Below are positions 29,745 through 42,231 of a DNA stretch of 42,231 nucleotides, in pieces (position 1 is the first letter of the stretch; every line of letters begins with the position of its first letter). Source of the DNA: Porticoccaceae bacterium (lineage in GTDB: Bacteria; Pseudomonadota; Gammaproteobacteria; Pseudomonadales; Porticoccaceae); NCBI GenBank assembly GCA_029212965.1, contig JARGOV010000006.1:53303-95533 (forward strand). The letters are read 5' to 3'. Position numbers and translations under genes: made by a program. The notes under the pieces were generated by a model. That model saw nothing but the letters and a program-made list of their open reading frames with translations, made no database searches and was not told the DNA's origin.

Positions 29745-31538
29745 TTAACATCTAATGCGTAGCATATCATTGCAGAAAATTTTCATAGCATCATGTTGCC
29801 AATTGCCAGTTAAAATACCAAAAATTCTTAATTTGCGTATGTTTTTATAGTACTCTATTTTTTTTAGTGTGTTGTTCTCTAGGGGGAAACGTCCGTCGGA
29901 GACGACAAGTATGTCGCTTTTTTCCCATCCTTCTTCAGTTTGTTTTTGCAGTGCCAGATTAATTACTTGGTGCAGGTCAGTGCCGCCATGGAATGAAAAC
30001 TGTAAAAACGCCAATAGCTCGGTCAGCCCCCCACAACGCAAATCGAGTTGGTGACAGGTGGTGTCTCGAGGGCCACTAAAGGAAAATAGGTGGCAGGGAC
30101 GCTGTTCACGATGGGCAATGTTTAGCGCTTCAAGAACGGCCGCTTTGGCAATGTACTCTGGCTCACCCTGCATTGACCCGGAGGTGTCGAGACAGACAAT
30201 AATGGGGCCTCGACCGAGGCTGGATTTATCCCTTTGCGCCTGACTATTGAGGGAGCCTCTTTTCATCAATGCCCCTTTGTTTTTCTCTCCAAGGCTATGC
30301 TTACCCCGGTGTTGATAGAGTAACAGTAAGCGCTCTGCACGCCTGGCATGCCAAAGCGTTTTCAATGTTGGGTGGCAGAGCAGGACCGTTTCTGAGGGCA
30401 GCATGCGGTTAATATCGTCACCGCGCTCGATGCCGTCCATTTCGAGGGTTTTACGTGGGACTTTCTTATGGCGCTGATTCTGTCCTTGGGCATTTGAAAG
30501 AATCTGCGTTTCAGCACGACGGCTTGCTGCGGCAAAATTGGCATCGCCGGCAATTTCCTCTTTACGCCCTAAGGCGTTAATAAAATGAATTAATTCGGGT
30601 TGCTCTTTAATGCGCTGGCGATAGCGGATAATGTCGCGCCATCCCTGAGAGCTAAGTAACCCCGTACTCAAGTCCCAGCCCCGCCCTGGGAGTTTTTTAA
30701 TTGCTGTGCTTTGCTGAGTGAGTGCAAGCCCAGTGGTGTTTTCTCGCTGTTTGTTTTTATGCGCTATTTCTTGTTCTAGCCTGCTCAGCAGCTGCCATTG
30801 ATTAGCGATACCCTGCCAACGCTGTTGCAGATTGTCGATAGCGTCTTTTCCAATGCTATCTTGTTTGTCATCGTGTGCCTCACCTTGCGGAAATGGTTCG
30901 CTGTGAGTTTGTTGTGTTTTAGTGTTGTTAGCATCATCTGTTGTATGAGCTGGACTTTGCAGGTTGGCAGTAGAAGGGGCGTGGTCGTGTTGAGCTAAGC
31001 CTTCAGGCCGGTTTTTAAGGTCTTTTGGCTGTCGAGTTTTTGTTTCTTTATTGTGCCCGCTATCGGGTGATGATGAGCTGTCATAGGAGCCGCTGCGGCT
31101 TGTCGGCATTTGTACGTGGTCTGCCAAGCCCTCTTCATCGCGAAAGGACGACGCTTTATCTTTGATGTTCTGGCGTTGCGCGAGCTTATCGTGAAATTTA
31201 TTCGCCGTTTTAGTGAGGTAGTCTTCGGCGCTACTAACACCCTCGCAAATATCTTTAAGCACGCTATCCGTAATATCTTCCTGGCCCCGGCAAAAGTCGG
31301 GCAGTTCGAGAGTTTCGATACGCATTAACAGTGTCTTGCACAGCGTTTTTTCTGGCCAACACAGGCTGTCCATTTCCGGTAACTCTCCGGAGAGAAGCTT
31401 TTCGCGCCATTGTAATATGCCCCGTGCCCGCGTCAGCAATGAGCCGTGAGTGTGGGTAATGACGACATCGTAGAGGGTGTCGGGTAGGGTATCGAGTGCG
31501 GAAAATTCTTGCTCAAGCTGGCCCAGATTAAGACGCAT
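29745..31538 (-). CDS. VWA-domain protein, ViaA-like (partner of MoxR ATPase)
   Basis: MIDAS motif IVCLDTSGSMQGEPEYIAKAAVLEALNIAHREQRPCHLFSFSG; GGTDLHQVINLALQ; ILVVSDGRFP; adjacent to the MoxR ATPase. Confidence 0.85.
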   Translation of the reverse strand: MRLNLGQLEQEFSALDTLPDTLYDVVITHTHGSLLTRARGILQWREKLLSGELPEMDSLCWPEKTLCKTLLMRIETLELPDFCRGQEDITDSVLKDICEGVSSAEDYLTKTANKFHDKLAQRQNIKDKASSFRDEEGLADHVQMPTSRSGSYDSSSSPDSGHNKETKTRQPKDLKNRPEGLAQHDHAPSTANLQSPAHTTDDANNTKTQQTHSEPFPQGEAHDDKQDSIGKDAIDNLQQRWQGIANQWQLLSRLEQEIAHKNKQRENTTGLALTQQSTAIKKLPGRGWDLSTGLLSSQGWRDIIRYRQRIKEQPELIHFINALGRKEEIAGDANFAAASRRAETQILSNAQGQNQRHKKVPRKTLEMDGIERGDDINRMLPSETVLLCHPTLKTLWHARRAERLLLLYQHRGKHSLGEKNKGALMKRGSLNSQAQRDKSSLGRGPIIVCLDTSGSMQGEPEYIAKAAVLEALNIAHREQRPCHLFSFSGPRDTTCHQLDLRCGGLTELLAFLQFSFHGGTDLHQVINLALQKQTEEGWEKSDILVVSDGRFPLENNTLKKIEYYKNIRKLRIFGILTGNWQHDAMKIFCNDMLRIRC

Positions 31539-31560: not shown

Positions 31561-33183
31561 CTAGGCTGTTTTACTGCTTGAGTAAGTTGACGTTGATGTC
31601 GATTGGCGTGATGCCTTCCGCTTGCCAAGCTGCTGGTAGGCGGCAATAACGTTTTGCAGGCGGCGTTCAAAATTGGACACTTTTTGCAAATTATCACTCA
31701 AGACTTGTCTCGCGCTACCGAGCACAGAGGAGGTGATCCACAGGTGCTGGCCCAATGCTTGTTCAATGGCAGCGTCGCTGTGCTCCAGGCTGTTACGTAA
31801 AGTGGCTATGTCGGCGGCCAATTTTTTATTTTCATCGAGTCGGCCTTGAATAAAGGTGTCCGAGTGTACGGTGGGCTCCAAGCATGGCGGGTTTTGGTGG
31901 CGCAATATTAAGCGGTTGGCAGGGTGGGCAATATACTGGTCTATATGCTGCCAGTGGCCGTCGATATGACACTGCTGATAATGCTGGTCAAAAAACCTAT
32001 CACTCAACTCGCGCTTAGTATAACCCTGGTTGTCGTTGCTGCGGTCATCTTGATCGGGGGGTGATAAATACAGCGCCAGACCGTCGCGGTGGCGCCACTC
32101 TCGCTCGATCTCTGTGGTGGTTTTTTGGCCTTCGCGGTTGTAATAGAGGCGTTGACCTTTGTCGTTGTTGATTTGGGTTTGACTCTTTTGATCAGTTTGT
32201 AGGGTGCTTTCCCAGGTGGCGATTAATTTTTCCAGTCGCTCGGTTTTAAAGCCACTGCCAGCGCCAATTTGCGTGCTCAACCAACGCTCAATAATGGGCT
32301 GCTCGGCGGGTGTATTCCACAGGCAATGTTGCAGCAGGTAACAGTCCCATAGCGACACCTGTGTTGCGCTACCTGTTTTGCTCGGTGGCTCGCCATGGGT
32401 TTGGGCATTGGTGAAGGCGGCTACTTTTAATAGTTTGACGACCTTGCGCCAGCGCCGATCCGAGACCTCGATATTTTGTGTCGCGAGATAGAGGCGAAGG
32501 GCTTTAAGTAATGACAAGGCATCATCGGATAGTGACACCGTGCGCGCCGCTATTTGTAGGTTATCGACTTCGGCGTGACTTAAGCGATCCAGCAAATCGG
32601 GTTCGCGGCTTTGGTCATCGAGTTCTAGCAAAGCGACAAAGTTTTCGTCAGCGACCGACTCTACTGCGTGGCGGCAGATAAAGCGGTCATAGAGCGCTTG
32701 TAGTTCGTCGTCTTCGGGCAGCTCGTTGCTGGCACCGACAACGGAGATCAGGGGCACTTTTACCCGGCAATCACCGTTGTCAAACTCCCCTTCGTTGAGC
32801 AGCGTGAGTAAAGTGTTGAGTATGGCGCTATTGGCTTTGAATACTTCGTCGAGAAAGGCAATATTCGCCGTCGGCAGGTAGCGCTCGGTGAGGCGTTGAT
32901 AGCGATCACTTTCCAAGGCCTTAATCGATAGTGGCCCGAATAATTCGTCGGGTACCGAAAAACGCGTTAACAGGCGCTCGAAATAATGGCCCGGTTGAAA
33001 GGCTAAATGCAAGCGGCGGGCGAGCACACTTTTGGCCGTGCCGGGTGGCCCTATCAGCAGAGTGTGTTCACCACTGAGAGCGGCTAATAAGGTTAAGCGG
33101 GCCGCCGTCTCCCGCTCCAGTAAGCCACTTTCCATGCACCCCAGTAAGCGTTGTAGGCGCGCTTTTAGCGGATCTTTTTCCAA
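31561..33183 (-). CDS. MoxR-family AAA+ ATPase, RavA-like
   Basis: LLIGPPGTAKSVLARRLHLAF (Walker A); ERLLTRFSVPDELFGPLSIKALESDRYQRLTERYLPTANIAFLDEVFKANSAILNTLLTLLNEGEF; VGASNELPEDDELQALYDRF. Closely matches the E. coli RavA motif pattern from memory. Confidence 0.88.
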   Translation of the reverse strand: MEKDPLKARLQRLLGCMESGLLERETAARLTLLAALSGEHTLLIGPPGTAKSVLARRLHLAFQPGHYFERLLTRFSVPDELFGPLSIKALESDRYQRLTERYLPTANIAFLDEVFKANSAILNTLLTLLNEGEFDNGDCRVKVPLISVVGASNELPEDDELQALYDRFICRHAVESVADENFVALLELDDQSREPDLLDRLSHAEVDNLQIAARTVSLSDDALSLLKALRLYLATQNIEVSDRRWRKVVKLLKVAAFTNAQTHGEPPSKTGSATQVSLWDCYLLQHCLWNTPAEQPIIERWLSTQIGAGSGFKTERLEKLIATWESTLQTDQKSQTQINNDKGQRLYYNREGQKTTTEIEREWRHRDGLALYLSPPDQDDRSNDNQGYTKRELSDRFFDQHYQQCHIDGHWQHIDQYIAHPANRLILRHQNPPCLEPTVHSDTFIQGRLDENKKLAADIATLRNSLEHSDAAIEQALGQHLWITSSVLGSARQVLSDNLQKVSNFERRLQNVIAAYQQLGKRKASRQSTSTSTYSSSKTA

Positions 33184-35084
33184 ACTACAATATCCTTGAT
33201 ATGGCGGTACAAAGTGCTCGGGCTGGTGGTGCGAATCGTCTCAAGTAGTTCGTCGAGCTTAAACTTGCCATGCAGTTCACGCACCACGCCAACTTGCTCC
33301 ATATCGACCAGACCCGATTCTCGGGCGTGCTCTTCAAAGGCTTTGTTCTTCCAGAAAAAGGCACCGGGCATGGTGGTGGGTATCACCAGCACAAAGAACA
33401 GCGAGCGGCTTATGGCACCAGCGCTTATCATCAATAGTGCCAATGTCCACCAGGCGGTGAAAGCCAGGTTGCCACCGGGGGCAGTGACGAGCAAGAGCAA
33501 GGCCGTGGCGAAGCTCAGGCCGAGTAAGACATTGCGGGTGATCCAGGCCTTGCCATATTGCGTGGTCTGTAAATACCAAGAGGCTGCGCCTTCATTTTCA
33601 AGGCTGCCCATGGCGCGGCTGTGGGCGATATGGCCGATCAGTTCAAGGCCAAGGCCGAGGGCAATCAGTACCATTAAAGGGCTGGCCAATGCCAACAGGG
33701 CTTGCTCGTTACTGATTAAGGGCAAGCTAATAAGACCTGTCAGCAGCGCGCCAAAACTGACGGTGTTGCCAAAAAACGCGCTACCGGTCTGCCAGTGATC
33801 CCAGAAGGGTCGGGCCTTAATGCGGTAGATCTTGTACATGTAATAGAGACCAATAAGACCGCTAAGGGCGCCGAGCACACCTGAGGCATTGGCGAGAAAG
33901 TTGAACAGCGTATTGTCAAAAATGGAGAAAAAGCCATAGGCCATCAAAAAGGTATAGAACCCTGAGACGCCGGCAATTTCGCGACTCAGCGGCGATAGGC
34001 GCAGGTTATTAAAGCCCCGGTAAAAACGATGGGGTTTACCCAGGTGCATGTTCAGCTTGAAAAGGCCGTAAGTGAGCAGGCTAAACATAATACCCAGTAG
34101 GGGGAGTTTGACGGCGCTGCTATTGAGGGCACTTAACGCCTCAATATTGATCAGGCCGGCGCTGACAATGATTAAAAAAGCGCCGAGCACTGCTTGGGTA
34201 CTGAGGGTAAAAATGACGTGGGCACTTTCGTGTGAAGTGAGTAGCTTGCGCCAGTTAAAGTGCTTCTTGTCACCACTTTTTTTGTCGACCTTGGGCTTGA
34301 AAATACCGACGCTATCGTCTTTGTGGTATTTCATGGGCATGGCGTCAGTGCGGGTCATTTCCCGGTGAGTCGAGCGGGTCTGTTGAAAACGAATGTTGGG
34401 TTGGGTGATGTCGGTGGTGGGGAAACCGGGAATCGCCGTTTTTGCCTCAATGCGATTTTCGGGAATATTTTCGACCACGCCAAAATCCAGCGCGTTACCC
34501 AAACAGGCCGAGACACAGGCGGGCTTAAGGCCGACTTCAAGGCGGTCAACACACATATTACATTTGGTGACCTGCCCTTTGACGGGGTCGAGCTGGGGTG
34601 CGTTATAGGGGCAGACCCAGGTGCAGTAACCACAGCCAAAACAAATATCAGGGTCTTGCAGCACGGCGCCGTATTCGGCGTACTTGGTGTAGGCGCGCGT
34701 GGGACAGCCTTTCAAGCACACCGGATCGTCGCAGTGGTTGCAGGCCATGGAAATATTGATGCGCTGGTAGTCCGGGTAGGTGCCGCCCTCGACAAAGCCC
34801 ACCGAGCGGAAGGCAATATGGGCGGGGTTGTCGTTCTTTTCACTACAGGCCGCTTCGCAGGCATGGCAGCCGATGCAGTTGTCGGCGTTGAGAAAAAACC
34901 CGTGCTGCTTGTAACGGTTGGGGTTGTCGCCAATGCCGGGGTCACCATTGATGTTTAAACTCTGGCAGTGCAGCTCACTGTCTTCATCGATTAAATCAAT
35001 TAAATTGCCGTGTTGGTTTACCGCTTTGGTTTCTTTATCCCAAAGGAAGCTGTATTCGGGTTCGTCACTGCGTACGTCTAACAT
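33165..35084 (-). CDS. Fused DmsB-like four-cluster ferredoxin + DmsC-like membrane anchor
   Basis: Cys clusters CIGCHACEAAC, CNHCDDPVCLKGC, CFGCGYCTWVC, CNMCVDRLEVGLKPACVSAC, followed by an ~8-TM DmsC-like domain (AHVIFTLSTQAVLGAFLIIVSAG...KLNMHLGKPHRFYRGFNNLRLSPLSREI). Confidence 0.9.
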   Translation of the reverse strand: MLDVRSDEPEYSFLWDKETKAVNQHGNLIDLIDEDSELHCQSLNINGDPGIGDNPNRYKQHGFFLNADNCIGCHACEAACSEKNDNPAHIAFRSVGFVEGGTYPDYQRINISMACNHCDDPVCLKGCPTRAYTKYAEYGAVLQDPDICFGCGYCTWVCPYNAPQLDPVKGQVTKCNMCVDRLEVGLKPACVSACLGNALDFGVVENIPENRIEAKTAIPGFPTTDITQPNIRFQQTRSTHREMTRTDAMPMKYHKDDSVGIFKPKVDKKSGDKKHFNWRKLLTSHESAHVIFTLSTQAVLGAFLIIVSAGLINIEALSALNSSAVKLPLLGIMFSLLTYGLFKLNMHLGKPHRFYRGFNNLRLSPLSREIAGVSGFYTFLMAYGFFSIFDNTLFNFLANASGVLGALSGLIGLYYMYKIYRIKARPFWDHWQTGSAFFGNTVSFGALLTGLISLPLISNEQALLALASPLMVLIALGLGLELIGHIAHSRAMGSLENEGAASWYLQTTQYGKAWITRNVLLGLSFATALLLLVTAPGGNLAFTAWWTLALLMISAGAISRSLFFVLVIPTTMPGAFFWKNKAFEEHARESGLVDMEQVGVVRELHGKFKLDELLETIRTTSPSTLYRHIKDIVVWKKIR

Positions 35085-35147
35085 AGGGGCCTTGAAACCT
35101 TAGAGTTGATGGACGTTATTAACAACATAAAAATCAGAGCGGGGTGC

Positions 35148-37352
35148 TTAAAATGCCCGGCGCTCGCGACTCATTTGTGCCGCTGCTTGTTGATCGGCAA
35201 TCGGTTCAATCATCACTGCCGACTGCTTGTAGGCGGGCTGGCGTGAGTGGGGGTCGAGCAAACCAAGAGTTAAGCGGTTAACACAGTCGAAAAAGTGAAA
35301 GGGAATAAACACCATGTCCTTGGGGACGCGTTGGGTGCACATGGCCATAACAATGGCATCGCCACGACGGGACACACAACGCACATAGTCCTGATGTTGA
35401 ATGCCCAGTTCTCGGGCGGCATCGGGGTTAATTTCCATAAAGGGAATGGGGCTGTACTTGTTGTTGTTGCCGATTTTTCCGGTCTTGGTGCGGGTGTGAA
35501 AGTGCTCGACAAGGCGACCAGTATTGAGCCAGTAGGGGTATTTCTCATCGGGTACTTCATTGTTATCGATAAACGGTAGGGGTACTAATTTGGCCATGCC
35601 ATCGGCAAAGGAGAAAGTACCGTTTTCCGTGTAGAGCCGCTTGCCACCTTGTAGCGGTTCTTCGCCGCGCTCCGCTTCCTCTGCGGTATAGGGCCATTGA
35701 ATGCCGCGCTTTTCTTCAATCAGGTCGTGACTCATGCCAGAGATATCCAGCAAACGGCCTTTGGAAAGCGACTTCATTTCTTCGAAAACAGCAGCCGGCT
35801 TGTCGGGAAAGTTCATCTTGGCCGACTGCTCAAACCGTTGCGCCAAGGCGTTAAAAATCGCCAAATCAGATTTCGACTCACCCGGTGCATCGGTGGCCTT
35901 GCGCACGATGTTGACGCGCCGTTCGGTATTGGTAAATACGCCCTCTTTCTCCGCCCAGGTGGCTGCGGGTAAATAGAGGTGGGCGTATTGTACTGTCTCG
36001 ACATCGGCATAGGAGTCTTGCACCACGAGGAAGTCGAGCTTTTCAAGGGTTTTGCGGATGCGCGCGGTATTGGGTAGCGAGGTCATGGGGTTAGTGGCCA
36101 CCAACCACAGGCCCTTGATTTCACCCAGCTCAATGGCAGGGAAAATATCGGTTTCGGCAAGGCCGCGCTTTTTCGGGAAAAACTCAGGGTCGACATTCCA
36201 GTACTTGGCAATATCTTCTCTATCTTGGGGGTTTTCTAACGCGCGATAGCCGGGCAAGCCTGAACATGAGGACCACTCTCGCGTGCCCATGGCATTGCAC
36301 TGCCCAGTAATTGACAGGCTGGTGCCACCGGGCTTGCCAATATTGCCGGTGAGTAAATTGATGTTGTTGATACCGACCACACCGTCAGAACCATGGGTAC
36401 TTTGGTTGATGCCCATGGTCCAGATACTCATGGCGGCATCGGCCTTGGCGTAAATGCGTGCGACGTTACGAATGGTGTCGGGGTCGATACCGCACACCTT
36501 AGAGGCACTGTCGGGGTCAAATTTGGCGACTTCACTCTCGAGCTGCTCAAGGCCGACGGTGTTAGCTTCGATATAGGCGCGATCTTCCAGACCCTCGTCG
36601 AGAATGACATGCATTATTGCGTTTTGCAGTACGACATCAGTGCCGGGCGTGACGGCGAGGTGGATATCGGCATTTTGCGCCAGCATAGTGACCCTGGGGT
36701 CGACCACGATGAGGGGGAAGTGGCGTTTTTCCTGGGCCTCTTTCATGCGCCAGTAAATAATGGGGTGTTGCTCGGGCAGGTTCGAGCCCCAAGCCATCAA
36801 GACATCGGTATGGTCAAAATCTTCATAGCTACCGGGGGGGCCGTCAGAGCCAAAAGAGCGCTTGTAGCCCGATACTGCCGAGGCCATACACAGGGTGGTA
36901 TTGCCGTCGTAATTATTAGTGCCAATGACGCCGCGTGTGAGTTTCCCCAGGGTGTAAAATTCTTCGGTCAGCAATTGTCCGGTGGAGACAATGGCAAAAG
37001 AATCGCGGCCGTGTTTTTGCTGAATATCACGGATTTTATCCGCCATGGTGTCGAGGGCGTCATCCCAGCTGGTTTCACGATAAGCCTCGCCAATTTGCTC
37101 GCGTATGATCGGCTTGTCACCACGACCGGCCGAATCAAACAGCTCGTGCTCGAAAATACCTTTTACGCAGAGTTTGCCACGGTTAACATCGGCACCACCC
37201 ACGCCTCGGGAACCGACAATTTTGCCCTCGGCGTTTTTGCCGATCTCAATTGAACAGCCCACTGAACAATAACCACAGGTGGAATAAGTCCACTCGGTGA
37301 TTTTTTTGTCGACCATGACAATAGGGTTTTTTGTATTGCGTCCAAGGAGCAT
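35148..37352 (-). CDS. nasA: Assimilatory (Nas-type) molybdopterin nitrate reductase catalytic subunit
   Basis: [4Fe-4S] motif CGYCSVGCSIEIGKN...GKLCVKG; Mo-ligand region NTTLCMASAVSGYKRSFGSDGPPGSYEDFDHTDV; MGINQSTHGSDGVVGINNINLLTGNIGKPGG; no Tat signal. Cluster with nirBD. Confidence 0.9.
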   Translation of the reverse strand: MLLGRNTKNPIVMVDKKITEWTYSTCGYCSVGCSIEIGKNAEGKIVGSRGVGGADVNRGKLCVKGIFEHELFDSAGRGDKPIIREQIGEAYRETSWDDALDTMADKIRDIQQKHGRDSFAIVSTGQLLTEEFYTLGKLTRGVIGTNNYDGNTTLCMASAVSGYKRSFGSDGPPGSYEDFDHTDVLMAWGSNLPEQHPIIYWRMKEAQEKRHFPLIVVDPRVTMLAQNADIHLAVTPGTDVVLQNAIMHVILDEGLEDRAYIEANTVGLEQLESEVAKFDPDSASKVCGIDPDTIRNVARIYAKADAAMSIWTMGINQSTHGSDGVVGINNINLLTGNIGKPGGTSLSITGQCNAMGTREWSSCSGLPGYRALENPQDREDIAKYWNVDPEFFPKKRGLAETDIFPAIELGEIKGLWLVATNPMTSLPNTARIRKTLEKLDFLVVQDSYADVETVQYAHLYLPAATWAEKEGVFTNTERRVNIVRKATDAPGESKSDLAIFNALAQRFEQSAKMNFPDKPAAVFEEMKSLSKGRLLDISGMSHDLIEEKRGIQWPYTAEEAERGEEPLQGGKRLYTENGTFSFADGMAKLVPLPFIDNNEVPDEKYPYWLNTGRLVEHFHTRTKTGKIGNNNKYSPIPFMEINPDAARELGIQHQDYVRCVSRRGDAIVMAMCTQRVPKDMVFIPFHFFDCVNRLTLGLLDPHSRQPAYKQSAVMIEPIADQQAAAQMSRERRAF

Positions 37353-37494: not shown

Positions 37495-38406
37495 TTAAGG
37501 CATCAGCAGACTATTTTTACTAACCAGTACGACATTGCCACCCACCCGTAGTGTGGTAGGTTTATTGGCGTGATTGTCCATTTCAATAGCCAGTACACTG
37601 CGCCGGGTTTCGGGGGTGCCTCTGTCGATAATAAAGGTGTAAGTCCCCTCACGAATAGCATCATGTGAGCCGAGGTAGCCGGTAAAACACGACATTGCAG
37701 AGCCGATAGGTGGATCTTCATGCACGCCGATGCTGGGGCCTAAAAGGCGGGCATGGAAGTCGGTATCGCTGTTGTCGGTTTTATTACTAAACACCAGTAT
37801 TTCCTGGGCAGCCATGGCTGGCGCACTCGACTGGCTCCAGGCCTTCATGTCGAAGCGCGCCTTGCGCACGGCAGCCTGGGAGGTCAGTGGTAGAATTAAA
37901 TAGGGTAGGTCAATAGACACCAAGCGAGTTTGAAAGGTGCGGGTGTCGATATCACTTTCGTCAATGGATAGCAGAGCGGCAAGCTCACTAGCACGGGGTG
38001 TATAGCGGTCGACCACCGGGTCGCTGGACAGGGTGAACTGTACAAACAAAGGCTCGCCTTCAGTTTGCTCAATGTTAACGTTCAAGTCACCGGTCTTTTG
38101 TTGAAAACAAGCCGTAGCTTTGCCGTTGTTGAGGGTAATGAGCCCTTCTTCAACCAGGGCTTTAGCGGTGGCGAGTACCGGGTGGCCCGCAAAACTGACT
38201 TCTTTAAGCGGTGTGAAGATACGCAGCTTAAAGTGATTGTCCTGTTCACCGGGGCTGACAAAAACGGTTTCCGAAAGATTTAGTTCTCTGGCAATCAGCG
38301 ACATTTGCTGGTCGTCAATCTTTGCCGCAGCGGGAAAGACGGCAATTTGTGCACCTTGAAAAAGGGTTTGGGTAAAAACATCAGCAGTGTAAAAAGTATG
38401 AGACAT
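37495..38406 (-). CDS. PhzF-family isomerase/epimerase
   Basis: YTADVFTQTLFQGAQIAVFPAA; RELNLSETVFV; LRIFTPLKEVSFAGHPVLATAKAL; EDPPIGSAMSCFTGYL. Confidence 0.88.
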   Translation of the reverse strand: MSHTFYTADVFTQTLFQGAQIAVFPAAAKIDDQQMSLIARELNLSETVFVSPGEQDNHFKLRIFTPLKEVSFAGHPVLATAKALVEEGLITLNNGKATACFQQKTGDLNVNIEQTEGEPLFVQFTLSSDPVVDRYTPRASELAALLSIDESDIDTRTFQTRLVSIDLPYLILPLTSQAAVRKARFDMKAWSQSSAPAMAAQEILVFSNKTDNSDTDFHARLLGPSIGVHEDPPIGSAMSCFTGYLGSHDAIREGTYTFIIDRGTPETRRSVLAIEMDNHANKPTTLRVGGNVVLVSKNSLLMP

Positions 38407-38421
38407 AGCAGAATCCTTGGC

Positions 38422-38808
38422 TTAGCCGGCAACCAGTACGTTGCCGTCGGCAATTTTGACGGGAAAGGTGGCAATAGACACGCTTTCATCTTCAAAACAT
38501 TGCCCTGTGGCCAGATTAAAATGCTCTTTTAACACGGGTGATGCAACGGCGAGTTGTTCGCCGATGCTACAGAGAATACCCCGAGACAGCACATTGGCTT
38601 CACTGAAGGGATCGAAGTTGCTAATCGCATAAACCGCATCATTGGCGCTGGTGCGAAACAGGGCGATTTGTGTTTCCCTCGGGGTGTCGGCATGGAGTAG
38701 GGCTGCGACACCCGCATTGCAAGGTAAGTCTTCCAGGGCACAAATACTGATCCAGTTTTGGTCTGTTGTCACATTATCTTCCTGTACATTTTTAGTGGGG
38801 TCTTTCAT
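38422..38808 (-). CDS. nirD: Nitrite reductase (NADH) small subunit
   Basis: NWISICALEDLPCNAGVAALL...IALFRTS...VYAISNFDPFSEANVLSRGILCSIGEQLAVASPVLKEHFNLATGQCFEDE; 4-nt ATGA overlap with nirB. Confidence 0.95.
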   Translation of the reverse strand: MKDPTKNVQEDNVTTDQNWISICALEDLPCNAGVAALLHADTPRETQIALFRTSANDAVYAISNFDPFSEANVLSRGILCSIGEQLAVASPVLKEHFNLATGQCFEDESVSIATFPVKIADGNVLVAG

Positions 38809-41333
38809 GCGCTAACGAGCTCTTTTTCATCTTTTCGAGCGGGGCGAATTTGCCCGCGTTCCTCAACGAAGACAACGTTGCTGTCAGCTTTATTGCTGTT
38901 AATAAACGGACGGAACATCAACACTTTTTCTTCATCGTCGATGGTGGTTTTCCACTCGCATTGATAAGTGTCGATGACTTTAGCCATTTCGGCCTCGAGC
39001 TTTTCACCAATACCCAGGGAGTCGCTGATAATCACCTCGCGCAAATAATCGACGCCGCCATCCATGTTATCCATCCAGGTAGAGGTGCGCTGTAAGCGAT
39101 CGGCCGTTTGTACGTAGAACATCAAAAAGCGGTCGGTGTATTTGATCAGGGTTTCTGTATCGAGATCAGTGGCAAATAGATCTGCGTGACGCGGGCGCAT
39201 GCCGCCGTTGCCACAGACATACATATTCCAGCCGCTTTCAGTGGCAATGATGCCCACATCTTTACTCTGGGCCTCGGCGCACTCGCGGGTGCAGCCGGAG
39301 ACGGCAGACTTAATTTTGTGCGGCGAGCGCAACCCTTTGTAGCGGTGCTCAATTTGCAGTGCCAGCGCGACACTGTCGTTTTGGCCGTAACGACACCAGG
39401 TGCTACCGACACAGGATTTAACCGTGCGCAGGGACTTACCGTAGGCGTGGCCGGTTTCAAAACCTGCGTCGACCAGTTCTTTCCATATTTGGGGCAGTTG
39501 CTCGAGCCGCGCACCGAATAAGTCGATACGTTGTCCCCCGGTCACCTTGGTGTAAAGGTTGTATTTCTTGCCTACTTCACCGAGCACGATTAGCTTCTCG
39601 GGGGTGATTTCGCCACCGGCAATGCGCGGCACAATGGAGTAGGTGCCGTCTTTTTGCATATTGCCCAAGTAACGGTCGTTGGTGTCTTGCAGACCGAGAT
39701 GCTCGGGTTCGAGAACGTAGTCATTCCAGCAGGAAGCTAAAATAGAGGCAGCGGTGGGTTTGCAAATATCACAGCCGTAGCCACTACCGTGTTGAGCTAA
39801 CAGGTCGCTAAAGGTTTTTATTTCACCAACCCGCACCAGGTGGTAAAGCTCTTGGCGGGTGTGGGGAAAGTGCTCGCAAATGTCGGTGTTGACCTCGAGC
39901 CCCATTTTTTCGAGTTCGTTGTTGAGCACTTGGCCGACGAGTGTTTTACAACCCCCGCAACTAGTACCGGCATTGGTCGCTAAGGTGAGGTCGCCCAGCA
40001 CGGTGGCACCGTCGGAGACAGCCTGGCACAACTGACCTTTAGTGACATCGTTACAGGAACAAATTTGTGCGCCGTCAGGCAGCATATCGACGCCCATGCC
40101 GGTGGCGCCATTGCCATCGCGCTGGGGCAAAATCAGGGCATCGGGGAATTCCGGCAGGGGGATATCGTTGAGAGCCATTTGCAACAAGGTGCCGTAGTCG
40201 GCAGCATCGCCGACTAGCACAGCACCTAGCAGCCGAGTGTTGTCTGCACTGACGACGATCTTTTTATAAATCTCTTCAGTGCCGTTAACGTAGGTGTATT
40301 CTTTGGCGTTGGGGGTGTTGGCGTGGGCGTCACCGATACTCGCTACATCAATACCCATTAGCTTTAACTTGGTGCTCATGTCGGCACCCGAAAAGGCATT
40401 GTCTTCGGCATTGATGTGGTCGCAGGCAACCTGAGCCATTTTATAGCCGGGGGCAACCAGACCGTAAATGCGTCCGCTCCACATCGCGCATTCGCCGATG
40501 GCGTAAACGTCGGGGTCCGACGTTTGGCAGTGATCATTGACTACGATGCCGCCACGTTCACCCAGTTCCAGCTTGCAGTCCCGTGCCAGCGCGTCCTGCG
40601 GGCGAATACCGGCGGAGAACAGCAGCATGTCGGTTTCTATCTCGGAACCGTCAGCAAAGCTCATTTTGTGGAAGCGCTCATCACCGTCGCCGATGTTTTG
40701 GGTGTTCATGCCCAAATGGACTTTGACCCCCAGGTCTTCAATTTTTTGGCGCAGCATCGCGCCACCGCCGTCGTCAATTTGCACGGCCATTAGGCGTGGT
40801 GCAAATTCAATAACGTGGGTTTCCAGACCGAGGTCAACCAGGGCTTTCGCCGCTTCAAGGCCGAGTAAGCCACCGCCGATCACAGCACCCACTTTCGAAT
40901 TTTTAGCGGCAGCCTGCATGTCCTCGAGGTCGTCAATGGTGCGATAGACAAAGCAGTTGTCGCGGTCGTGGCCGGGTATGGGGGGCACGAAAGGAAAAGA
41001 GCCGGTGGCTAGTACCAGTTTGTCGTAGCTCAGTACCTCGCCCTTTTCGGAGGTGACCGTTTTGGCGCTGCGGTCGATGCTCACGGCTTTGTCGCCGAGG
41101 AGGACACGAATACCGTGCTGCTCGTAATAACCAGGTTCGACCAACGACAGGTCGTCGGCACTACGGCCGCAAAAGAACTCGCTGAGATGAACGCGGTCGT
41201 AGGCGATGCGGCTCTCTTCACAGAAGGTAGTCACTTCAAAGGCCGAGTATTGTGGGCTATTGACCATGGCTTCCAGGAACTTATGGCCAACCATGCCGTT
41301 GCCGATGACAAGAACGCGCTGTTTGTTACTCAT
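38805..41333 (-). CDS. nirB: Nitrite reductase (NADH) large subunit (ATG 41333 preferred; ORF open to 41351)
   Basis: RVLVIGNGMVGHKFLEAMV; BFD CSCNDVTKGQLCQAV...AGTSCGGCKTLVGQVLNNEL; siroheme/4Fe-4S VKSCVGSTWCRYGQNDSVALALQIE...AVSGCTRECAEAQSKDVGIIATESGWNMYVCGNGGMRPRHADL. Confidence 0.97.
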   Translation of the reverse strand: MSNKQRVLVIGNGMVGHKFLEAMVNSPQYSAFEVTTFCEESRIAYDRVHLSEFFCGRSADDLSLVEPGYYEQHGIRVLLGDKAVSIDRSAKTVTSEKGEVLSYDKLVLATGSFPFVPPIPGHDRDNCFVYRTIDDLEDMQAAAKNSKVGAVIGGGLLGLEAAKALVDLGLETHVIEFAPRLMAVQIDDGGGAMLRQKIEDLGVKVHLGMNTQNIGDGDERFHKMSFADGSEIETDMLLFSAGIRPQDALARDCKLELGERGGIVVNDHCQTSDPDVYAIGECAMWSGRIYGLVAPGYKMAQVACDHINAEDNAFSGADMSTKLKLMGIDVASIGDAHANTPNAKEYTYVNGTEEIYKKIVVSADNTRLLGAVLVGDAADYGTLLQMALNDIPLPEFPDALILPQRDGNGATGMGVDMLPDGAQICSCNDVTKGQLCQAVSDGATVLGDLTLATNAGTSCGGCKTLVGQVLNNELEKMGLEVNTDICEHFPHTRQELYHLVRVGEIKTFSDLLAQHGSGYGCDICKPTAASILASCWNDYVLEPEHLGLQDTNDRYLGNMQKDGTYSIVPRIAGGEITPEKLIVLGEVGKKYNLYTKVTGGQRIDLFGARLEQLPQIWKELVDAGFETGHAYGKSLRTVKSCVGSTWCRYGQNDSVALALQIEHRYKGLRSPHKIKSAVSGCTRECAEAQSKDVGIIATESGWNMYVCGNGGMRPRHADLFATDLDTETLIKYTDRFLMFYVQTADRLQRTSTWMDNMDGGVDYLREVIISDSLGIGEKLEAEMAKVIDTYQCEWKTTIDDEEKVLMFRPFINSNKADSNVVFVEERGQIRPARKDEKELVSA

Positions 41334-41465
41334 GATATTTTGTAGTCCCATTAAATACGGTTTAAAGATAAATCAGAGGCTATCGAACTAGAGCTTAAGC
41401 ATGAATTGTGCCAGCCTTGGTGGTAGTCGGCTTTGCCGGTTCAGACTAGCTGTAAAATATTCATT

Positions 41466-41803: not shown

Positions 41804-42231
41804 ATGAGTGAGTTGGAGCATCTTTTAGCGAGTAATAAACGTTGGGCCAAGAATGTCCAAAATGAAAAGCCCCACTTCTTTAGCGACTTGTCACAGCAGC
41901 AGGCGCCTGAGTATTTGTGGATCGGTTGCTCTGACAGTCGGGTCCCTGCTAATCAGATTACCGGCCTGTTGCCCGGTGAAGTTTTTGTGCACCGAAATAT
42001 AGCCAATGTGGTGGTGCACTCCGACTTGAACTGCCTTTCAGTGGTGCAATTCGCCGTTGAAGTCCTGAAAGTCAAGCACATTATTGTCTGCGGCCACTAC
42101 GGTTGTGGCGGCGTAAAAGCAGCGATGGAAGACAAAGACCACGGTTTAATCGATAACTGGTTGTGCCATATCCGCGACGTCCACCGTTTTCACCGCCAAG
42201 CTATTGATAGCTGTGCTAACGAAGATGACCA
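41804..42231 (+). CDS. can: Beta-class carbonic anhydrase, 3' truncated by window edge
   Basis: Translated by hand: MSELEHLLASNKRWAKNVQNEKPHFFSDLSQQQAPEYLWIGCSDSRVPANQITGLLPGEVFVHRNIANVVVHSDLNCLSVVQFAVEVLKVKHIIVCGHYGCGGVKAAM. Zn ligands in CSDSR and HYGCGG. Absent from the ORF track because it has no stop in the window. Confidence 0.95.
   Translation, partial: MSELEHLLASNKRWAKNVQNEKPHFFSDLSQQQAPEYLWIGCSDSRVPANQITGLLPGEVFVHRNIANVVVHSDLNCLSVVQFAVEVLKVKHIIVCGHYGCGGVKAAMEDKDHGLIDNWLCHIRDVHRFHRQAIDSCANEDD

Follow-up and report, generated by a model that had tools for sequence, protein, structure and literature searches.

Assimilatory nitrate reductases of the NasA/NarB type, as known from Klebsiella, Synechococcus and Rhizobium, are cytoplasmic enzymes for which ferredoxin, flavodoxin or NAD(P)H flavoproteins act as electron donors, in many cases via a C-terminal BFD [2Fe-2S] domain. 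NarGHI is quinol-driven and combines a cytoplasmic nitrate site with a four-cluster iron-sulfur (Fe-S) subunit; its NarI subunit is a di-haem cytochrome b that oxidises quinol on the periplasmic side and so conserves energy. In the dimethyl sulfoxide (DMSO) reductase DmsABC the catalytic subunit is exported and the N-terminus of DmsC lies outside. SoeABC of the Allochromatium vinosum type was described as a cytoplasmic sulfite oxidase (PMC6397845). Here, we analyse a stretch of 42,231 nucleotides of a Porticoccaceae bacterium (assembly GCA_029212965.1, contig JARGOV010000006.1, positions 53,303 to 95,533 of the forward strand), referred to as the window, in which a nasA-like gene is followed by a gene encoding a fused DmsB-DmsC-like electron-transfer and membrane anchor protein (the fusion). 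We consider it likely that both proteins constitute a two-subunit, cytoplasm-facing and membrane-bound quinol:nitrate oxidoreductase, which feeds the nitrite reductase NirBD. A reading of the window from its letters only (the sequence-only reading) had placed NasA and the fusion at 33165-37352, and both coordinates proved exact.

NasA and the fusion are a conserved pair with near-perfect co-occurrence. An even draw of the class yielded the full-length fusion in 58 of 370 genomes. The matching NasA is present in all of them (58/58), and comparison of the coordinates showed that the two genes are adjacent in 57. The fusion is a discrete family, its lowest-scoring full-length member reaching 781 bits and the next match, from ordinary Fe-S subunits, 178 bits. 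For the NasA clade, full-length or near-full-length matches score at least 1100 bits, while full-length members of other groups score at most 589 bits. NasA of this clade without the fusion was observed in four genomes, in three of which (G242, G160 and G059) the match stops at a contig end. Of 482 relatives obtained by scanning named genomes, the best 80 were kept; these 80 are all gammaproteobacterial by title or uncultured. They include Methylococcales (Methylomonas, Methyloglobulus), Crenothrix, Cycloclasticus, Thiotrichaceae, the Solemya velum symbiont and marine metagenome-assembled genomes. Methylomonas methanica carries the fusion gene at locus L048. NasA is located directly upstream of the fusion on the same strand in 73 of the 75 named loci that could be judged. 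Since the fusion is a discrete family adjoining NasA at this frequency, the pairing is not due to chance. In a draw of the phylum (398 genomes), the fusion occurs, the host aside, in five genomes, of which two do not belong to the class; in every case it adjoins the end of this NasA.

NasA consists of three MopB Pfam domains, with nothing beyond the dinucleotide-binding domain. An N-terminal [4Fe-4S] motif precedes the domains for the molybdenum bis-molybdopterin guanine dinucleotide cofactor (Mo-bis-MGD), and the Mo ligand Cys155 is followed by Met156; both residues are invariant in 43/43 aligned NasA homologs. The surrounding motif, NTTLCMAS (Cys-Met), is that of Nas and Nap, whereas formate dehydrogenases in the same alignment show Cys-His, or His after the selenocysteine position. 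In a tree of 34 proteins, the NasA clade was grouped with Nas and Nap to the exclusion of formate dehydrogenases (node 100/100). It forms a separate, well-supported clade inside Nas/Nap, whose sister group the tree leaves unresolved. Comparison with the NCBIfam models NF047855 and NF041323 yielded 503 bits (cut-off 1100) and 498 bits (cut-off 1000), respectively; a canonical proteobacterial NasA is also below both cut-offs (466 and 399 bits). The narG model gave 60 bits against a cut-off of 1084 and the ligand is Cys, which speaks against an identity as NarG. A motif resembling the twin-arginine translocation (Tat) signal was found in 0/43 NasA homologs and 0/47 fusion homologs, and Pfam detected no Fer2_BFD domain in NasA or any of its 43 aligned homologs. 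The absence of a Tat signal and of a C-terminal [2Fe-2S] extension, which the sequence-only reading had noticed in NasA, thus extends to the homologs. Residues 1-22 of NasA form a near-invariant N-terminal extension (MLxGRxxKN...DK....W.Y) ahead of the Fe-S motif. These approximately 20 residues are absent from those canonical NasA proteins that start at the motif, and they possibly contact the fusion. The AlphaFold model of NasA was mediocre and was not used.

The genomic context points to nitrate as well. NirB is encoded upstream of the pair in 39/47 loci, and a gene for a NarK-type transporter adjoins the pair in, for example, L040 and L039; the L039 copy scores marginally below the family cut-off. 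An ANTAR response regulator is present in L039. In the host, a NarK-type transporter is also encoded elsewhere in the genome, and nirB and nirD were found in the same operon as the pair, which is in line with the role in nitrite handling that had been assigned to NirBD from the letters of the window. Based on clade, motif and genomic context, there is good support for regarding nitrate as the probable substrate of NasA.

The fusion starts with Fer4 dicluster domains, which are followed by a PF04976 DmsC domain (residues 285-565, E 3.7e-19). No NrfD-family Pfam match was obtained, so that the profile comparison of DmsC and NrfD, proposed as a check, came out for DmsC. Both Fer4 and DmsC are present in 47/47 fusion homologs, in all of which the 16 Cys of the Fe-S clusters are invariant. 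AlphaFold predicts eight helices in the DmsC domain with high confidence. The initial description of four [4Fe-4S] Cys clusters joined to a DmsC-like domain with multiple transmembrane helices is thereby borne out. The Fe-S domain matches TIGR02951 with 161.7 bits, which is below the cut-off. In trees, it is nearer to DmsB than to SoeB, but long branches meet at this point and the trees leave an origin from Soe or Dms undecided. Proteins of high Fe-S similarity in L120 and L124 were rejected as SoeB references; they accompany Tat-signalled catalytic subunits and have no adjacent DmsC.

The orientation of the fusion in the membrane was predicted by aligning the membrane domains and counting Lys and Arg separately for loops that share a side with the N-terminus and Fe-S domain and for those on the opposite side. 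For calibration, seven DMSO-reductase-type systems with Tat-exported catalytic subunits were used (Tat-like N-termini shown for six). Their mean counts are 2.6 on the Fe-S side and 6.6 on the opposite side (7/7), as expected for an N-terminus outside the cell (N-out). Nine Soe-like anchors, a reference set named from gene order and the absence of Tat rather than from activity, gave 9.2 and 1.3 (9/9); the Fe-S subunits of this set have no Tat motif. For the fusions, the values are 10.4 and 0.7 (47/47), a stronger bias than in the Soe-like set. In the fusion, the loops on the opposite side are short and a single sequence would be weak evidence; it is the contrast with the aligned DmsC proteins that carries the argument. 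The loop-charge pattern is opposite to that of the Tat-exported Dms systems, and from it we predict a cytoplasmic location of the Fe-S domain, on the side of NasA. The DmsC fold of the fusion is thus predicted to be inverted relative to DMSO reductases. A periplasmic Fe-S domain, which would have spoken against the electron path suggested originally, was not predicted in any of the 47 proteins.

In DmsC of Escherichia coli, replacement of His65 blocks quinol oxidation and Glu87 is important (PMC8076601). The equivalent residues of the fusion, H347 and E369, are invariant in 47/47 fusions, unlike most of the membrane domain, which is variable in the same alignment. Both residues also occur in every one of the Soe-like and Dms proteins that were compared.

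Compared to the known systems, SoeABC is the closest working analogue of the NasA-fusion pair. Shared features are a cytoplasm-facing molybdoenzyme, a four-cluster Fe-S subunit, an anchor of the DmsC family, a predicted topology with the N-terminus inside (N-in) and the conserved His/Glu quinol site. However, the catalytic subunit is of the Nas/Nap type and not SoeA, the pathway is that of nitrate and not of sulfite, subunits B and C form one polypeptide, and both domains fall in clades apart from the Soe-like set. By the tests made, the pair is a member of neither Soe nor Dms. The DMSO and selenate reductases DmsABC and YnfFGH have the Fe-S and DmsC domain families and the quinol-site residues in common with the fusion, but DmsA is Tat-exported, DmsC is N-out and B and C are separate genes, whereas NasA lacks Tat and the topology of the fusion is inverted. 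With NasA/NarB, the clade shares the cytoplasmic location, the Cys-Met Mo ligand, the nirBD/NarK/ANTAR context and the affiliation with the Nas/Nap group; it differs in the missing BFD domain, the N-terminal extension and the membrane Fe-S partner. The predicted quinol drive, the cytoplasmic nitrate site and the four-cluster Fe-S subunit are reminiscent of NarGHI, in which Mo is ligated by Asp of NarG and not by Cys as in NasA; the host genome encodes no NarG.

The assembled host genome (2.76 Mb, 94% complete) was surveyed for alternative partners and donors. NasA and one protein on contig C64 are its only MopB proteins. The start of the latter resembles FdsA of NAD-linked formate dehydrogenase, judged by eye and without a profile; NuoG was dropped as its identity on account of this FdsA-like N-terminus. 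The MopB search revealed no NarG or other nitrate reductase beyond NasA. The only DmsC in the genome is that within the fusion, and BFD domains were found only in NirB. Taken together, these counts indicate that the assembled genome offers neither a second obvious catalytic partner for the fusion nor a flavoprotein of the BFD type as a donor to NasA. The operon itself contains no separate reductase, in keeping with the earlier remark that a NasB/NasC flavoprotein is missing from it.

In the proposed mechanism, the DmsC domain would oxidise quinol at the cytoplasmic face of the membrane. From there, electrons would pass through the four [4Fe-4S] clusters of the fusion to the [4Fe-4S] cluster of NasA and on to Mo-bis-MGD. 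Nitrate would be reduced to nitrite in the cytoplasm, and NirBD would then convert nitrite to ammonium with NAD(P)H. Nitrate reduction would take up, on the same side, the protons that quinol releases, making the overall reaction electroneutral and free of proton pumping; since both half-reactions would face the cytoplasm, no energy would be conserved. Quinol would thus be spent in place of the NADH or ferredoxin that the usual enzymes require. We infer complex formation, the direction and donor of electron flow, the substrate and the assimilatory role. The sequence-only reading had already suggested electron flow from quinol via the anchor and the Fe-S domain to NasA, and the steps accessible to computation (topology, quinol site, co-occurrence and NasA clade) agree with it.

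The same electron path could mainly serve as an electron sink or in ammonifying (dissimilatory) nitrate reduction, relieving an over-reduced quinol pool at low oxygen. NirBD can serve an assimilatory or a dissimilatory role, and the canonical NAD(P)H-type NasA encoded beside the pair in some genomes would be redundant if both enzymes only assimilated. We nevertheless regard such a main role as unlikely, since the host has no other nitrate reductase, companions such as the ANTAR regulator and the NarK-type transporter are typical of assimilation, and sites that both face the cytoplasm, as the topology suggests, should conserve no energy. It is less probable still that the DmsC domain is an anchor only and that the Fe-S domain is fed by a soluble ferredoxin or an NAD(P)H flavoprotein encoded elsewhere. 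Known Nas enzymes use such donors (PMC13381448), and in L022 the fusion is followed by a flavoprotein with similarity to the N-terminal half of NirB as well as by a canonical NasA. A mere anchor would, however, not need the quinol-site residues that are invariant amid a variable membrane domain, and no BFD flavoprotein besides NirB is encoded in the host genome. An identity of the molybdoenzyme as a quinone-linked formate dehydrogenase or another oxidoreductase was prompted by its best NCBIfam match, TIGR01591 Fdh-alpha (575 bits, below the cut-off). This ranking is uninformative, because a canonical BFD-bearing NasA likewise ranks Fdh-alpha first. The LCMAS motif in place of Cys-His or selenocysteine-His and the separation in the tree (100/100) rule out formate dehydrogenase, and the context of NirBD, NarK and ANTAR leaves very little room for any oxidoreductase other than a nitrate reductase.

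Several observations weigh against a quinol:nitrate oxidoreductase that serves assimilation throughout. NirB is not upstream of the pair in 8/47 loci. G165 has a NasA of the clade that is adjoined by other genes and has no adjacent fusion, and in G013 the pair is split between two contigs. AlphaFold confidence is low for the Fe-S domain of the fusion, making that part of the model unreliable. A fold search with the fusion model gave no match at E<=0.001; the weak best matches of the membrane domain include ActC, ActF and PsrC, quinone subunits of the NrfD-like superfamily. A canonical NasA is present beside the pair in L022, L126 and L128, with the BFD domain confirmed in L128 and L022. The claim that the fusion acts 'instead of NasB/ferredoxin' therefore holds for the host genome but not for every relative, and where the two types coexist, the role of the fusion-linked NasA may be a specialised one or another altogether, and each enzyme may serve its own conditions. 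Given the completeness of the host assembly, a donor gene may also have been missed.

The features of the window are compiled in Table 1. The gap between nasA and the fusion gene is 63 bp, and the fusion gene shares 19 nt with the start of the RavA-like gene. For RavA-ViaA of E. coli, a link to the assembly of Fe-S centres and binding to respiratory complex I are described (PMC3893208), and it is plausible by analogy that the RavA-like/ViaA-like pair assists the assembly of the membrane Fe-S complex in the host. It is not a core part of the system, because it directly follows the fusion in only 21/71 loci. The PhzF-family gene is a conserved companion, found upstream of the fusion in 30/47 related loci. 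A partial gene (41804-42231) at the end of the window matches in position a carbonic anhydrase gene upstream of nirB in the close relative L003. In other loci, a small DsrC/TusE-like gene follows the fusion, immediately in L080 (9914-10252) and at a distance of about 0.4 kb in L126 (12157-12498). A fusion of PP2C phosphatase and protein kinase is encoded beside the NarK-type transporter in L128 (1108-2826, by Pfam) and L040 (1943-3703, N-terminus only). Judged by similarity, L127 also has two NasA types side by side.

Table 1 Features of the NasA-fusion locus (positions in the window)
Feature	Position	Strand	Basis and remarks
nasA-like catalytic subunit	35148..37352	-	734 residues; Pfam, 43-member alignment, tree, active-site motif
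Fused DmsB-DmsC-like electron-transfer and membrane anchor protein	33165..35084	-	639 residues; Pfam/NCBIfam, 47-member alignment
Fe-S domain of the fusion, residues 65-207	34464..34892	-	16 Cys, corresponding to four [4Fe-4S] clusters; predicted cytoplasmic (positive-inside)
DmsC domain of the fusion, residues 285-567	33384..34232	-	PF04976; 8 transmembrane helices (AlphaFold), predicted N-in/C-in
Predicted quinol-site residues of the fusion	H347 34044-34046, E369 33978-33980	-	Equivalents of DmsC His65/Glu87
nirB, NAD(P)H nitrite reductase large subunit	38805..41351	-	NF011565, 1378 bits, over cut-off
nirD, nitrite reductase small subunit	38422..38808	-	TIGR02378, 104.7 bits, over cut-off
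PhzF-family protein between nirD and nasA	37495..38406	-	PF02567
RavA-like MoxR ATPase	31561..33183	-	PF20030/AAA_5; NF010054 (RavA), 271.8 bits, below cut-off
ViaA-like VWA protein, partner of the RavA-like ATPase	29745..31538	-	NF008230 (ViaA), 163.5 bits, below cut-off

According to Wells et al., no NasA/NasC, AioA or NapA is associated with four-cluster Fe-S and membrane anchor subunits (PMC7331816), and in a 2026 paper NC-type enzymes are stated to use low-potential electrons, not quinols (PMC13381448). No description of the NasA-fusion combination was found in the searched literature, which comprised open-licence papers only, so that an earlier description elsewhere is possible. The component families are all known, and the combination is new as far as the open-licence literature shows. 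On balance, we lean towards a widespread, unrecognised class of assimilatory nitrate reductases, a separate clade of cytoplasmic Cys-ligated (NC-type) enzymes driven by quinol via an inverted DmsC fold fused to the Fe-S subunit. Such a class would save NADH where it is expensive, as in methanotrophs and sulfur oxidisers, and would contradict the notion that quinone-linked subunits are never partners of Nas enzymes. To judge from the taxa among the best 80 relatives, the use of quinol would suit these organisms, for which NADH comes at a high cost. If this holds true, annotators would gain a donor rule for NasA proteins without a BFD domain. The fusion would be a second case besides Soe of a cytoplasm-facing DmsC-type subunit, useful for studies of orientation flips in such membrane proteins, and the electron cost of nitrate assimilation would change in many marine, methane-oxidising and sulfur-oxidising Gammaproteobacteria.

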